Shown here in pieces: positions 9,351 through 14,024 of a stretch of DNA of 14,753 nucleotides. Below the pieces are notes generated by a model. That model had not been told where the DNA came from. It ran no database searches and saw only the letters and a program-made list of their open reading frames with translations. A program made the translations under genes and the position numbers. Positions within the stretch are counted from its first letter, which is position 1; each line of letters starts with the position of its first letter. Origin of the DNA: an uncultured Pedobacter sp. (GTDB lineage Bacteria > Bacteroidota > Bacteroidia > Sphingobacteriales > Sphingobacteriaceae); NCBI GenBank assembly GCA_946478755.1, contig CAMLDJ010000122.1:1-14753 (forward strand). The letters run 5' to 3'.

Positions 9351-10541
9351 TTAATATAACAACTTATCATAAGGATAACGTTCTGTGTGTAAAGCGACAA
9401 CCTTATCATATAATAATTGCTTAAATTCGTCTAAATTCTCTTTGTGCAGTGCCGATATAAATATCGCAGGTGCATTCTCTGATCCCATCCAGCTCTTTTT
9501 GAAATCCTCCAGCGTAAGCATCACCTGTTCCTCTTCTTCATGATCTGGCTCGGGACTCACATAGGCGTCAATTTTATTGAATACCATGATGGTCTCTTTA
9601 TCTCTTGCGCCGAGATCTTTCAATGTTTCGTTCACCACATTGATCTGATCCTCGAAATTGGGATGTGAAACATCGACTACATGAATCAGGATATCCGCCT
9701 CACGGACTTCATCGAGGGTCGACTTAAAACATTCCACCAGGTGATGTGGCAGCTTTCTGATGAACCCTACCGTGTCAGACAAGAGGAAAGGAAGGTTTTC
9801 TATAACCACCTTTCGCACGGTGGTATCCAAGGTAGCAAAAAGCTTATTTTCGGCAAATACCTCTGATTTAGACAGCATATTCATGATGGTAGACTTCCCT
9901 ACGTTGGTATAACCCACCAGCGCCACACGGATCAGCTGACCGCGGTTCTTGCGCTGTGTTTCATTCTGCTTGTCGATCAGTTTCAGGCGACTTTTCAACA
10001 GGCCGATCTTTTCAAGGATCATCCTACGGTCACTCTCAATCTGGGTCTCACCCGGTCCGCGCATTCCGATACCACCTTTCTGACGTTCCAGGTGGGTCCA
10101 CAAACGGGTTAAGCGCGGCAATAAATATTGAAGCTGCGCCAGCTCCACCTGTGTTTTTGCTTGTGCAGTTTGTGCCCGGCCGGCAAAAATATCAAGAATC
10201 AGGTTACTCCGGTCAAGGACCTTTACCTGCAGTTCCCTTTCAATGTTCCTCAGTTGTGATGGTGACAGTTCATCATCAAAAACAACCATGTCTATCTCTT
10301 CCGACTTCACATAAGCCTGTATTTCTTCCAACTTTCCTGTACCTACAAAGGTAGCGCGGTCTGGCTTAAGCATTTTCTGGGTAAACTCACGCTCCACCAA
10401 TCCACCGGCCGTATCCACTAAAAAAGCCAGCTCATCCAGGAATTCCCTGGTTTCCTCAGGCTTTTCCCCAGGCCTGACCACTCCTACAAGTACTGCCCGT
10501 TCTTGCTTAAGTGCCGTATCATAATATTTCTGTCTTCCCAT
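9351..10541 (-). CDS. hflX: Ribosome-splitting GTPase HflX
   Basis: The 396-residue protein has the HflX layout: N-terminal domain with ATFVGTGKLEEI and VVFDDELSPSQ, the family signature GGIGMRGPGETQ (156-167) on a helical linker, then a Ras-like G domain. GTPase motifs are G1 GYTNVGKST (210-218), G2 near FATLDTT (235-241), G3 DTVGF (256-260), G4 NKID (322-325) and G5 SAL. HflX binds the 50S E-site region and splits stalled or stress-inactivated 70S ribosomes. It starts 22 bases after trpC, so read-through from the trp promoter is possible, but a candidate -7 box lies in the gap. The downstream gene is rbfA. Confidence 0.95.
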   Translation of the reverse strand: MGRQKYYDTALKQERAVLVGVVRPGEKPEETREFLDELAFLVDTAGGLVEREFTQKMLKPDRATFVGTGKLEEIQAYVKSEEIDMVVFDDELSPSQLRNIERELQVKVLDRSNLILDIFAGRAQTAQAKTQVELAQLQYLLPRLTRLWTHLERQKGGIGMRGPGETQIESDRRMILEKIGLLKSRLKLIDKQNETQRKNRGQLIRVALVGYTNVGKSTIMNMLSKSEVFAENKLFATLDTTVRKVVIENLPFLLSDTVGFIRKLPHHLVECFKSTLDEVREADILIHVVDVSHPNFEDQINVVNETLKDLGARDKETIMVFNKIDAYVSPEPDHEEEEQVMLTLEDFKKSWMGSENAPAIFISALHKENLDEFKQLLYDKVVALHTERYPYDKLLY

Positions 10542-10549
10542 GTAAAATA

Positions 10550-10557
10550 CAAAGATA
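10550..10557 (-). promoter_or_regulatory. Candidate internal -7 promoter box before hflX
   Basis: On the minus strand TATCTTTG is a perfect TAnnTTTG match, lying in the 22-base gap between the trpC stop and the hflX ATG. By the usual geometry transcription would start near 10546, only about 5 bases before the hflX start codon. No TTTG is found 19-21 bases upstream, where the 3' end of trpC lies, so the promoter is incomplete. It would let hflX and rbfA be made independently of tryptophan control. Confidence 0.4.
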
Positions 10558-10563
10558 CAAAAC

Positions 10564-11355
10564 TTATATCGAGATCAGCTGTCCGGCGAAGTCCCGCATG
10601 GCCTGCCCCGGATCAGCGGTTTTCATAAAATTTTCCCCGATCAGGAAGCCATTAAAGCCTGCCACTTTCAAATCATTGATGGTCTGCGCTGCGCTTATTG
10701 CACTTTCTGATATCTTCATGAACTCGTCTGGAATCTGTTTAACCAGGTCGAAAGAAGTCTGAATGTTTACTGTAAAGTCGGCCAGATTACGATTATTTAC
10801 GCCAATCGCATCCAAATCTTTACAAATGCTGCGCTGTAATTCCTCCTCGTTATGTACTTCGAGCAGCACATTTAAGCCAAGGCTTTTTGCCAGGGCAGAC
10901 AGGTTTTTTATTTCCACGGGTGTCAAAATTGCAGCAATTAATAAAATGATGTCCGCACCTAAAGCTTTCGCTTCCAGAATCTGGTATTCATCGATCATAA
11001 AATCCTTTCTTAACACAGGGATTTCATTAACCGCCCTTGCAATAAGCAGATCGTCGGTATGCCCGCCAAAGAAATCTACATCCGTCAGTACAGAAAGTGC
11101 TGAGGCCCCTGCCGCAGCATAAGCCTGCGTCACCTCCTCTACCTTCACCTGGTCGTTAATGATCCCTTTAGACGGTGAACGTCGTTTGAACTCGGCAATG
11201 ATACCGGTACGTTTGCCGTCTAATAAAAAATCTTTGAATACGTAAGGGTTGCGGTTAAAGTGGAGGCCTGTTTCCAGCTGCTTCACAGAAACAGCCTGTT
11301 TGGCAAGGGCTACCTCTTCCTTTTTACGCAATACAATTTTATCTAAAATAGTCAT
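10564..11355 (-). CDS. trpC: Indole-3-glycerol phosphate synthase
   Basis: TrpC closes the ring of carboxyphenylamino-deoxyribulose phosphate to indole-3-glycerol phosphate, the fourth step after chorismate in tryptophan synthesis. The 263-residue single-domain TIM barrel shows the expected catalytic residues: Glu55 and Lys57 in EFKRRSPSKG, Lys117 in VLRKDF, Glu166 in LLEVHNEEEL, Asn187 in GVNNRN, and Glu217-Ser218 in ISESAIS, followed by GFLIGENFM. It is not fused to TrpF. The start is 2 bases after the trpG stop, implying translational coupling. No trpD lies between trpG and trpC, unlike the common trpEGDC order. Confidence 0.96.
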   Translation of the reverse strand: MTILDKIVLRKKEEVALAKQAVSVKQLETGLHFNRNPYVFKDFLLDGKRTGIIAEFKRRSPSKGIINDQVKVEEVTQAYAAAGASALSVLTDVDFFGGHTDDLLIARAVNEIPVLRKDFMIDEYQILEAKALGADIILLIAAILTPVEIKNLSALAKSLGLNVLLEVHNEEELQRSICKDLDAIGVNNRNLADFTVNIQTSFDLVKQIPDEFMKISESAISAAQTINDLKVAGFNGFLIGENFMKTADPGQAMRDFAGQLISI

Positions 11356-11357
11356 AT

Positions 11358-11942
11358 TTAATTCTCTAACCAGTTCTGCATCATTTGTTTTCCATATTCT
11401 GTAAGTACGCTTTCCGGGTGAAACTGAACACCTCGAACGTCAAGGTCCTTATGCCTTAAAGCCATGATTTCCGCATCGGCATCTGTTGCGGTTACTGTAA
11501 AGCAGTCCGGCAGCCCTTCGGCATTTACTACCCAGGAGTGGTAACGGCCAACATTTATGGTATCTGGACAATCCTTAAAAAGCAATTCAGTTTTGTCCAG
11601 AACAGTAACGGGTGTGGCAATTCCATGCATTGGTCTGCCTAAATTTAACAAGGTCCCACCAAAAGCCTCTGCAATGGCCTGCTGACCTAAGCATACACCA
11701 AATATACTTTTCGTTGCAGCATAAGTTTTAATGACCTCCAGCAAAAGACCGGCTTCTTCCGGTATCCCTGGCCCCGGCGATAGAATGATCTTGTCGAACT
11801 GATCCACGTCTGCCAGTTCAAACTTGTCATTTCTCCATACCTCCACCTCCCGGCCCAGTTCATTCACCAGGTGTACTAAATTATAGGTGAAAGAATCGTA
11901 GTTATCAATAACCAATACTTTCTTTTGTATGCTCTTATCCAT
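11358..11942 (-). CDS. trpG: Anthranilate synthase glutamine amidotransferase subunit
   Basis: TrpG hydrolyses glutamine and passes ammonia to TrpE for anthranilate formation. The 194-residue class I amidotransferase has VIDNYDSFTYNLV at the start, the oxyanion strand ILSPGPG (53-59), nucleophile Cys84 in GVCLGQQ, GRYHSW (132-137), and the catalytic His175/Glu177 pair in GVQFHPES. It starts 5 bases after the trpE stop and ends 2 bases before trpC, so the three genes form one tight unit. As in other bacteria the subunit might also serve para-aminobenzoate synthesis if no separate pabA exists; that cannot be judged here. Confidence 0.95.
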   Translation of the reverse strand: MDKSIQKKVLVIDNYDSFTYNLVHLVNELGREVEVWRNDKFELADVDQFDKIILSPGPGIPEEAGLLLEVIKTYAATKSIFGVCLGQQAIAEAFGGTLLNLGRPMHGIATPVTVLDKTELLFKDCPDTINVGRYHSWVVNAEGLPDCFTVTATDADAEIMALRHKDLDVRGVQFHPESVLTEYGKQMMQNWLEN

Positions 11943-11947
11943 TTTAT

Positions 11948-13354
11948 TTAAATATCTGCAGCCATTTGTATTGCTTTGCGCAAAGCGGCAATTTTATTAT
12001 TTACTTCATTCAGTTCGTTTACTGCGACAGAATCGGCCACTATGCCTGCCCCTGCCCGGTAATGCAACTGGTTATTTTTACTCATAAATGTTCTGATCAT
12101 GATGGCATGATTGAACTGGTCATTAAAGCCCATATAGCCAATTGCGCCGGCATAAAAATTACGGCCCAGTCCTTCATACTCGTCTATCAGCTGCATCGCC
12201 CTGTATTTCGGTGCGCCGCTCAGCGTACCTGCCGGATAGGTATCTGCGACAACTTTAAAGGCGGATACATCAGGCTGAAGGTTACCACTTACTTTCGACA
12301 CCAGGTGGATCAAATGGGAATAATACTGTACTTCTTTAAAGGATTTTACCTCAACTCCGCTGCAGTGTCTACTCAGGTCGTTCCGGGCCAGGTCAACCAG
12401 CATCACATGCTCCGCACTTTCTTTTGGGTCCTGCTCCAGTTTCCTCGCCAGTTCGGCATCCTCCATGTCGTTACCGGTACGCTTAAAAGTACCGGCAATC
12501 GGAAAAATATTAGCCACATTGTCCTTGATCGTGATCTGTGCTTCCGGCGAAGAGCCAAAAAGTTTAAAGCTGCCGTAGTCAAAGTAAAACAGGTAGGGTG
12601 ATGGGTTGATAGATCTTAAACACCGATAAACATTGAATTCATCTCCCAAAAACCCCTGGTTATAGGCCCTTGAAGGCACAATCTGAAATACATCCCCACG
12701 CAGAATATGCTTCTTCATTTTCTCTACGATCTCCATAAAGCCTTCATTGCTCAGGTTAGAGTGCTCCTCACCGTCTACCTTAAAGCTATACTCTGGGAAG
12801 TTCTTGTTTTGAATGATGTATTCCAGCTTTTCCAGATCGTCATTGTCATCCCCATTAAATGTATTCTTAAACAGCGTGACCTCATTTTTAAAATGGTCAA
12901 TCGCAATGATATACCTGTAAATGTGGTATTGCATCATTGGAACTTCCTGATCCTTAGGCGTGCTTGCACTGAATTGAATATCTTCAAAATGCTGAACGGC
13001 ATTCCAGGTAAAATAGCCGAACAGGCCGCTCGAAATGTAGCGGGTATCTTCCAGTACAGGCGGTTTAAACGCCGCTTTAAAAGCGTCAATCTCTTCGGCA
13101 AGTACAAATTCTTTCTTTTCTTCCTTATATCCGTCGGGAAAATAAGCGGACAGCAGCCCATCCTGCAATACGATGCCCGCCACCGGTTCGGCGCAGACAT
13201 AACTTACAGAATTGGAACGGCTGTGGTAGTCTGAGCTTTCCAGCAGGATGGTGTTGGGGAATACGTCCCTTAACCGCAGATAAATACTTACAGGAGTGGT
13301 GGTGTCTGCCAACCGTTTCTTGTAAGTGGTGTTAATGATATAATTAGTTTTCAT
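11948..13354 (-). CDS. trpE: Anthranilate synthase component I
   Basis: TrpE converts chorismate and ammonia to anthranilate, the committed and feedback-inhibited step of tryptophan synthesis. The 468-residue protein has the N-terminal allosteric motif LLESS (37-41), typical of the tryptophan-binding site, and the chorismate-binding domain with GDVFQIVPSR (220-229), FGSSPEA, PIAGTFKR, HVMLVDLARND (316-326), PAGTLSGAPK (374-383) and GAGIVADS (435-442). LLESS, the adjoining trpG and trpC, and the attenuator upstream favour TrpE over PabB. ATG 13354 is preceded by AT-rich sequence with no Shine-Dalgarno. Expression should depend on read-through of the terminator at 13392-13423. Confidence 0.96.
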   Translation of the reverse strand: MKTNYIINTTYKKRLADTTTPVSIYLRLRDVFPNTILLESSDYHSRSNSVSYVCAEPVAGIVLQDGLLSAYFPDGYKEEKKEFVLAEEIDAFKAAFKPPVLEDTRYISSGLFGYFTWNAVQHFEDIQFSASTPKDQEVPMMQYHIYRYIIAIDHFKNEVTLFKNTFNGDDNDDLEKLEYIIQNKNFPEYSFKVDGEEHSNLSNEGFMEIVEKMKKHILRGDVFQIVPSRAYNQGFLGDEFNVYRCLRSINPSPYLFYFDYGSFKLFGSSPEAQITIKDNVANIFPIAGTFKRTGNDMEDAELARKLEQDPKESAEHVMLVDLARNDLSRHCSGVEVKSFKEVQYYSHLIHLVSKVSGNLQPDVSAFKVVADTYPAGTLSGAPKYRAMQLIDEYEGLGRNFYAGAIGYMGFNDQFNHAIMIRTFMSKNNQLHYRAGAGIVADSVAVNELNEVNNKIAALRKAIQMAADI

Positions 13355-13391
13355 AAAAAATTTTCATTCGTAATCAAAAAATAAGCTCAAC

Positions 13392-13423
13392 AAAAAACCC
13401 GACGTGTGGTCTACGTCGGGTTT
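13392..13423 (-). terminator. trp attenuator terminator (3:4 hairpin)
   Basis: In the minus-strand RNA, CCCGACGT (13420-13413) pairs perfectly with ACGTCGGG (13405-13398) around a seven-base loop AGACCAC. Three A before and three U after extend the stem to 11 pairs, and six T in all follow (13397-13392). It is a textbook intrinsic terminator placed about 37 bases before the trpE ATG and after its promoter. It therefore acts as an attenuator and not as the end of the preceding gene, whose stop lies upstream of the trp promoter. Confidence 0.9.
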
Positions 13424-13496
13424 CAATGTGGTTTGGTTTAGGTTGATAAACTATAAGGTACACAAAGCTACGACTAGACTCTTTTTGGGAGTGCTA
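13409..13496 (-). promoter_or_regulatory. trp attenuator switching region (segments 1, 2 and 3)
   Basis: Segment 1, TAGCACTC (13496-13489), can pair with segment 2, GAGTCTA (13481-13475): seven pairs with one bulged C and a seven-base loop. Segment 2, GTCTAGTCG (13479-13471), can instead pair with segment 3, CGACGTAGAC (13418-13409): nine pairs with one bulged G. Segment 3 is also the left arm of the terminator, so 2:3 and 3:4 exclude each other. The tandem Trp codons end at 13499, two bases before segment 1. A ribosome waiting there would mask segment 1, free segment 2 and permit the antiterminator. All pairings were found by eye; energies were not computed. Confidence 0.75.
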
Positions 13497-13528
13497 CGCC
13501 ATTGCCATGTGTGTATATTGTTAATCAT
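13451..13528 (-). CDS. trpL: trp operon leader peptide
   Basis: A 25-codon frame opens at ATG 13528 with MINNIHTWQW and ends with TAG at 13453-13451. Codons 8 and 10 are TGG (13507-13505 and 13501-13499), two Trp in a 25-residue peptide just before alternative RNA structures and a terminator. That is the hallmark of a ribosome-mediated tryptophan attenuator. The remainder (RSTPKKSLVVALCTL) is basic then hydrophobic and probably has no function of its own. The frame runs through segment 2 and stops about 30 bases before segment 3; in the E. coli leader the stop lies between segments 1 and 2. The ATG is about 3 bases from the predicted transcription start, so it may be read as a leaderless message. 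Confidence 0.8.
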   Translation of the reverse strand: MINNIHTWQWRSTPKKSLVVALCTL

Positions 13529-13534
13529 ATGTCA

Positions 13535-13565
13535 CAAAAATATAAATAAATCTTACAATGCCAAA
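13535..13565 (-). promoter_or_regulatory. trp operon promoter
   Basis: On the minus strand TTTG (13565-13562) and TATTTTTG (13542-13535) are separated by exactly 19 bases, a perfect fit to the Bacteroidota housekeeping promoter TTTG-N19-21-TAnnTTTG. The expected start is near 13531, three bases before the leader-peptide ATG. It lies just after the stop of the preceding membrane-protein gene (13581), showing that trpE has its own transcription unit. No operator-like palindrome stands out. Confidence 0.75.
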
Positions 13566-13580
13566 TTAAAATTGTAATTT

Positions 13581-14024
13581 TTATGAAACACCAAAAAGCG
13601 AACGCGTAGGATCGGCCTTAACCATTGCGATAACTGCAGCTATAATTAGAATCAGCGCGAGGCCAAAATAAAGTGCTACCGACCGGTGTTTTACCGCTGC
13701 ATCTATTCCTTTTTTAGAGCGTGCGTTTCCAACCGTGATCAGTATTACGGCTAAAAGCATCATGCTGATGTGCTCCATTTTCCAATAACGGCCAAGGGCA
13801 ACGCTGCTGTCTGCCTTATACCAGTCGTTCATAAAATAGAGGATCAAACCCAATAATAGCTGTATGTGGGCAGAAATTAATGTAAAAAGGTTTATTTTTC
13901 TATTTCCTTCGGTATATGGTTTTTTGCCAAGCCAGCCGGCCAGTGCTTGAATAATGGCCACTACCAATAAAATTAAAACCAGGTAACGCCAACCTGAATG
14001 TGCGCTTTTTAAGATCTGATACAT
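13581..14024 (-). CDS. Four-helix membrane protein, 'cytochrome B'-annotated Bacteroidota family
   Basis: The 147-residue protein has four predicted membrane segments at roughly 13-31, 46-64, 84-99 and 116-134. Conserved-looking histidines lie at or near helix ends: His9 (SAHSGWRY), His53 (SAHIQLLLG), His85 (KMEHISMM) and His113 (VKHRS). This matches a small Bacteroidota inner-membrane family that databases often call cytochrome B, presumably because of the histidine pattern. Haem binding has not been shown as far as I know, and no redox partner gene is adjacent. It precedes the trp promoter and seems to be a single-gene unit. Confidence 0.7.
   Translation of the reverse strand: MYQILKSAHSGWRYLVLILLVVAIIQALAGWLGKKPYTEGNRKINLFTLISAHIQLLLGLILYFMNDWYKADSSVALGRYWKMEHISMMLLAVILITVGNARSKKGIDAAVKHRSVALYFGLALILIIAAVIAMVKADPTRSLFGVS

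Follow-up and report, generated by a model that had tools for sequence, protein, structure and literature searches.

In Escherichia coli trpL, segment 1 of the leader RNA contains the Trp codons, the 1:2, 2:3 and 3:4 pairings exclude each other, a terminator precedes trpE, and transcription terminates when no ribosome is present. A second described system is trpLE(G) of Sinorhizobium meliloti (rnTrpL/peTrpL). According to passages of PMC7298713, its attenuator RNA starts at the trpL ATG, and trpE(G) is under the control of attenuation rather than of a repressor. Hence, a near-leaderless layout has a precedent. For the Bacteroidota, parts of PMC9723704 report strong indications that amino-acid operons of Flavobacterium psychrophilum are subject to attenuation by leader peptides; the section concerned names pheA, hisG and others, and the term 'trp' is absent from the main text of that paper. 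Leader-peptide-like sORFs in Bacteroides are described in a section of PMC7366714, and large searches are cited in a passage of PMC4833913.

Here we describe a locus in the window, by which we mean the whole 14,753-nucleotide stretch of DNA that was analysed. This locus is very probably a ribosome-mediated transcription attenuator, predicted to control a trpE-trpG-trpC operon. The mechanism is the textbook one; new are the lineage, the layout of the start and the breadth of conservation. A literature search gave, among the matches listed, no description of a trpE attenuator for Pedobacter or Sphingobacteriaceae. The initial suggestion that the element may be undescribed therefore holds for trpE of these groups, among those matches, but not for the principle, since attenuation was already suspected in Flavobacterium (in the part of PMC9723704 mentioned above) and leader-peptide-like sORFs were already reported from Bacteroides (PMC7366714, in the section cited).

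With E. coli trpL the window shares the Trp codons in segment 1, three exclusive pairings, the terminator before trpE and, as a prediction, termination without a ribosome. An E. coli-like logic had been proposed in the sequence-only reading that preceded this analysis, and the mutually exclusive 1:2, 2:3 and 3:4 pairings were indeed found by folding. Unlike in trpL, the stop codon of the leader lies after segment 2, and a near-leaderless start is predicted. Kinship between the two elements is not detectable, since the window gave no match to Rfam 15 at the gathering score (weak, unrelated matches at E <= 5 occur in 13300-13640). A further difference from E. coli concerns the repressor: the TrpR profile had no match in 10 related genomes, although the named control was matched. 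The S. meliloti system resembles the window in an RNA 5' end at or near the leader ATG and in the control of trpE(G) by attenuation, both of them predicted for the window. It differs in phylum and promoter, in a leader of 14 instead of 25 codons and in the lack of any 5'UTR, as opposed to a predicted 5'UTR of 1-3 nt. The structured 5' regions of F. psychrophilum, as presented in parts of PMC9723704, have in common with the window the phylum, an amino-acid operon and a leader peptide governing elongation.

Operon and leader in the window

The window is Pedobacter-like, its TrpE sharing 96% identity with the Pedobacter nyackensis protein in a sequence search, in agreement with the Bacteroidota background assumed at the outset. 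The best NCBIfam profile of trpE is anthranilate synthase component I, with a score below its curated cut-off. The leader found at 13528-13451 of the minus strand has 25 codons and a Trp-Gln-Trp run, exactly as claimed from the sequence, so that a short leader ORF with Trp codons, as known from trpL-type attenuators, is present. Such a leader gene is too short for usual annotation. A terminator and U-tract upstream of trpE had likewise been proposed and were confirmed, with trpE-trpG-trpC as the genes that follow; an intrinsic terminator is thus predicted between the leader and the first structural gene. The interval originally given for the element covers the leader and the hairpins, but leaves the promoter (13565-13535) outside. 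The features are listed below in the order of transcription. A1 denotes an alignment of 68 of the 81 genus-level rows, from which 13 near-identical rows were omitted.

13562..13565, minus: -33 element TTTG, separated from the -7 box by 19 nt (sequence; motif from a section of PMC7366714)
13535..13542, minus: -7 box TATTTTTG (TAnnTTTG, Bacteroidota primary sigma factor; sequence, relatives)
13530, minus: predicted transcription start (+1), with a predicted 5'UTR of 2 nt (13530-13529; from the box position)
13451..13528, minus: leader peptide ORF MINNIHTWQWRSTPKKSLVVALCTL, 25 codons and TAG (ORF list, conserved in relatives)
13505..13507, minus: Trp codon 8 (TGG), invariant in the 68 rows of A1
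13499..13501, minus: Trp codon 10 (TGG), invariant in the 68 rows of A1
13489..13512, minus: segment 1, pairing with 13460-13481 (folding, alignment)
13460..13481, minus: segment 2, in which 13471-13479 is the antiterminator 5' strand (folding, alignment)
13435..13455, minus: conserved linker TATAGTTTATCAACCTAAACC, the 5' part pairing with the leader start region 13516-13527 (alignment, folding)
13409..13423, minus: segment 3, comprising the antiterminator 3' strand 13409-13418 and the terminator 5' arm 13413-13423 (folding, alignment)
13395..13405, minus: segment 4, terminator 3' arm (folding, alignment)
13392..13397, minus: U-tract, six T (sequence)
11948..13354, minus: trpE, predicted gene under control, coding for anthranilate synthase component I (ORF, sequence search, profile)
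11358..11942, minus: trpG, glutamine amidotransferase of anthranilate (or aminodeoxychorismate) synthase (ORF, NCBIfam profile)
10564..11355, minus: trpC, indole-3-glycerol phosphate synthase (ORF, NCBIfam profile)

In the stretch 9351-11942, trpG is directly followed by trpC and then by hflX, which was named by its NCBIfam profile; no trpD, trpF, trpB or trpA turned up between these genes in the ORFs and profiles that were inspected. Upstream of the attenuator, an ORF of 147 aa at 13581-14024 has no NCBIfam match. By eye, two relatives (L047 and L049) show a similar C-terminal coding end ahead of the leader.

RNA pairings and ribosome positions

The 216-nt region folds with -55.4 kcal/mol, compared with a mean of -38.6 kcal/mol after shuffling (z -4.2), and none of 200 dinucleotide shuffles equals this value. 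The pairings proposed from the sequence were recovered. Both the inner 1:2 pairs (13496-13489 with 13481-13475) and the 3:4 pairs (13420-13413 with 13405-13398) are present in the unconstrained fold, the latter reaching on to 13423/13395. The 2:3 pairs (13479-13471 with 13418-13409) appear in the stalled-ribosome fold with 13414 bulged. The 1:2 helix is longer than originally described, however, and joins 13512-13489 with 13481-13460. It had been claimed that the Trp codons end two bases before segment 1; this has to be abandoned, because the full 1:2 helix puts these codons inside segment 1.

Folding of the window RNA began at the predicted +1 and covered five states, with any ribosome footprint masked. 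As long as segment 4 is still to be transcribed, a ribosome stalled at Trp codon 8 or 10 leaves the core pairs of the antiterminator formed with P 0.88-1.00, compared with 0.00 both without a ribosome and with a ribosome on segment 2. This is the outcome expected for the masked folding that the sequence-only reading had put forward as a check. A ribosome positioned at the stop codon still allows the antiterminator a probability of about 0.44. In silico, a stall at the Trp codons releases an antiterminator that cannot coexist with the terminator. In the full-length RNA, the terminator prevails in all five folded states with P of at least 0.96. Hence, the choice made by the switch must be kinetic.

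The following course of events is proposed. Transcription would start 1-3 nt before the start codon of the leader, and a ribosome would load on the almost leaderless RNA and then follow the polymerase. If charged tRNA-Trp is scarce, the ribosome would stall at Trp codon 8 or 10, thereby covering segment 1 and leaving segment 2 free. According to the pairing calculated in silico, and with kinetics that we infer, free segment 2 would capture emerging segment 3 before segment 4 exists, and with 2:3 formed the polymerase would continue into trpE. If tryptophan is plentiful, the ribosome would proceed over segment 2, so that 3:4 could pair and transcription would end at the U-tract. Without any ribosome, a long 1:2 rod would form and transcription would likewise end.

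The attenuator is supported in that all computed tests favour it, save the window's own shuffle test. The antiterminator of the window taken alone has an occupancy of 0.48 compared with a shuffled mean of 0.30 (p 0.115). On its own it is not beyond chance, and the case rests on the relatives.

The linker TATAGTTTATCAACCTAAACC between segments 2 and 3 (13435-13455) is strongly conserved, even where the leader stop precedes it, and a partner is predicted for its 5' part only. The helix between leader start and linker is paired in 94% of the cells of A1, with almost no covariation. Occlusion of the start codon by this helix, suggesting one ribosome per transcript, was considered as a candidate and rejected, since outside the genus the AUG is paired about as often as in shuffles (0.42 vs 0.39, p 0.25, 26 loci; for all 33 loci p 0.06).

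Conservation and covariation in the genus

For the genus set, the 80 best were taken out of 120 relatives that had been confirmed; most of them are Pedobacter, and the set also includes a Nubsella, a record labelled "Flavobacteriaceae" and some MAGs. A W-x-W leader is present in all 81 genus-level loci, i.e. in the 80 relatives and the window; an earlier script with a limit of 330 nt had found the leader in 78 of these and missed three. The conservation of the TGG codons, suggested as a check, is complete in A1 (68/68 rows for both), and the codon between them varies among CAA, CTT, CAC, CAG and CTA in the 80 unique genus-level loci. Conservation of the terminator is nearly as strict: 80 of the 81 loci show the strict pattern, and L019 has the same hairpin with one G-U pair.

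Some pairs of both structures change in a concerted manner. In the terminator, columns 140/165 change from AU to GC in 23 of the 68 rows of A1, and columns 145/160 do so in 20 rows and are unpaired in 9. The antiterminator pair 75/145 changes from UA to CG in 20 of the 68 rows. For both structures, the number of double-change cells, the covariation score and the percentage of paired cells exceed those of all 500 shuffles and of six slid versions. The covarying pairs in A1 (8 and 3) are no more numerous than in the shuffles of the tool (7.2 and 4.0), and the same applies to the pair types. The expected compensatory changes were found as concordant changes in segments 2, 3 and 4, but the number of covarying pairs is not above that in shuffles, and L070, whose segment 2 is changed without matching changes in segments 3 and 4, speaks against them.

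Since few clades carry the covariation, two observations weigh more. In L073, L157 and L164, an A in segment 2, a U in segment 3 and an A in segment 4 occur together, so that the 2:3 and the 3:4 pair both survive. The loci of the WLW-leader clade conserve segment 2 although they read it in frames +1, +2 and 0 (22, 5 and 1 of 28 loci). Consequently, segment 2 is kept as RNA, and the end of the peptide is free. Six loci (L063, L067, L068, L069, L072 and L075) have a frame shift after the Trp codons, with the same segment 2 RNA and different peptide ends.

These data bear on two other explanations. Tryptophan might be sensed in another way, by a TRAP-like protein, a T-box, a repressor or a TnaC-like nascent-peptide arrest, the Trp codons then being incidental. 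The dependence on tRNA-Trp is a prediction so far, which leaves some room for such a mechanism. We nevertheless consider it very improbable: besides TrpR, the TRAP (TrpBP) profile is without a match in the 10 related genomes, with a control that matches in B. subtilis, the window lacks an Rfam match at the gathering score, and the reading frame of the peptide downstream of the Trp codons is not conserved, although an arrest peptide would require this. By analogy with Sinorhizobium rnTrpL/peTrpL, the terminated RNA of about 139 nt and the peptide might also act in trans in addition to the control in cis. The near-leaderless layout resembles rnTrpL, and after termination the transcript would amount to a short mRNA with hardly any 5' leader. 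Such an action in trans nevertheless seems improbable to us, since the C-terminus of the peptide is frame-shifted among relatives.

Promoter and near-leaderless start

The promoter box with the near-leaderless start and the breadth of conservation had both been missed in the sequence-only reading. In the window, the promoter elements (13535-13565) end 6 nt before the AUG of the leader. A TAnnTTTG box precedes the leader start codon in all 81 genus-level loci, at a distance of 6 nt (55 loci), 7 nt (24) or 5 nt (2). A section of PMC9723704 places this box at -12 to -5. From the spacing of 5-7 nt, a 5'UTR of 1-3 nt is predicted, and the start of the leader is thereby inferred to be near-leaderless. 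The TTTG element with a spacer of 18-19 nt is present in 55 of the 80 unique genus-level loci, including the window. As regards frequency, leaderless mRNAs make up 5.5% in F. psychrophilum (a passage of PMC9723704), whereas in B. thetaiotaomicron 5'UTRs shorter than 10 nt account for about 3.7% (a passage of PMC7366714).

Among unique loci, the box lies 4-8 nt from the leader start in 80/80 cases in the genus, 46/68 in the family and 10/29 in the class. It is found at the leader start in 13 of 32 group representatives, which stand for groups that are less than 70% identical. In contrast, such a box accompanies only 3 of the 1805 remaining ATGs of these regions, and only 1 of the 192 start codons of trpE. 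In the whole genome of P. nyackensis, a box followed by an ATG after a 6-nt gap occurs 175 times, compared with 150 times for the reversed control. This is close to background, and the pattern therefore means little away from the conserved leader site.

The near-background spacing of box and ATG in the genome would fit an attenuator that is real but transcribed from further upstream with an ordinary 5'UTR, TATTTTTG not being an active -7 box. The same holds for the class level, where the box is at least 10 nt away in 10/29 loci and was not found in 8/29, and for the near-leaderless 5' end itself, which is a prediction. Since both box and spacing recur in every genus-level locus as opposed to the 3/1805 other ATGs, we regard a start further upstream as rather unlikely and retain the near-leaderless start as the prediction.

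Survey beyond the genus

The 81 genus-level loci were joined by a wider set of 89 trpE upstream regions from the family and order and 44 from the class. No strong TrpE was present in 15 of 81 family genomes, and 12 TrpE places and one place at a contig end were left out; at the class level, 100 of 149 genomes were without a TrpE at E <= 1e-80. A locus was counted if it contained a short ORF with a Trp cluster and, 40-150 nt past the last Trp, a terminator. Leader and terminator were found in 192 of the 214 loci, or in 177 of 199 after 15 duplicates had been taken out. The 22 undetected loci were inspected by eye. Six have a leader with a Trp run and a hairpin outside the limits of the script, eight a leader with one Trp or with Trps apart, two show nothing and three are cut by a contig end. 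In the remaining three, trpE lies behind another gene, presumably trpB. At the class level, three loci (L176, L181 and L184) have a single-Trp leader that begins with MKLWQ ahead of the hairpin and is apparently of a different type.

Applied to the last 400 nt, the same test is positive in all 32 representatives and in none of 1920 dinucleotide shuffles, 154 of which contain the Trp ORF alone. On the antisense strand, none of the 32 has ORF plus terminator and two have the ORF alone. One representative, L178, was scored on a wrong ORF. A plain terminator accompanied by a chance short ORF is hence the least credible explanation. Terminators between genes are common, which would speak for it, but the arrangement is missing from all 1920 shuffles, the TGG codons are invariant and the promoter box sits between the upstream ORF and the terminator. 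The attenuator as predicted is conserved throughout the family and, among the class loci examined, in a part.

Ribosome-dependent pairing was followed in the same loci. With a stalled ribosome, the pairing of segment 3 is above the shuffled mean in 31 of the 32 representatives (0.70 vs 0.44, Wilcoxon 2.3e-9), and the stalled antiterminator reaches p <= 0.05 in 13 of them. Taken singly, 12/81 genus, 26/82 family and 10/29 class loci reach p 0.05. The occupancy of the antiterminator is higher with a stalled ribosome than with none in 180 of 192 loci. A fall from more than 0.5 to less than 0.2 without a ribosome was seen in only 35/192 loci, and the antiterminator without a ribosome is still substantial, with means of 0.28, 0.43 and 0.45 by group. 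Hence, many relatives have a weak protector helix; in the window its effect is clear.

Parts of PMC9976891 state that ribosomes of Bacteroidia do not recognise Shine-Dalgarno sequences. With some hesitation, we incline to the view that near-leaderless trp attenuators are an old and widespread control of trpE in Bacteroidia, in which the start codon at the 5' end of the RNA would allow the first ribosome to load at once and to keep pace with RNA polymerase. If true, such attenuators would imply coupling of transcription and translation in Bacteroidota. The trpE gene of Pedobacter and its relatives would be a natural assay of whether ribosomes keep close to RNA polymerase, and its leader one of the translation of near-leaderless RNA in this phylum. 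An alignment and a covariance model are now given for this element without an Rfam 15 match.

Leaders with His or Phe runs and a terminator near hisG and pheA were not found in a crude scan of 20 loci from 10 genomes; in L258 a His-rich ORF is present, but no terminator goes with it. At E <= 1, the covariance model R1 matches 57 of the 81 genomes of the family. Below E 1e-3, all matches are at trpE except for two places (G029:C118:67944-68025 and G038:C1:2175443-2175540), which may be due to chance or may represent other attenuators.
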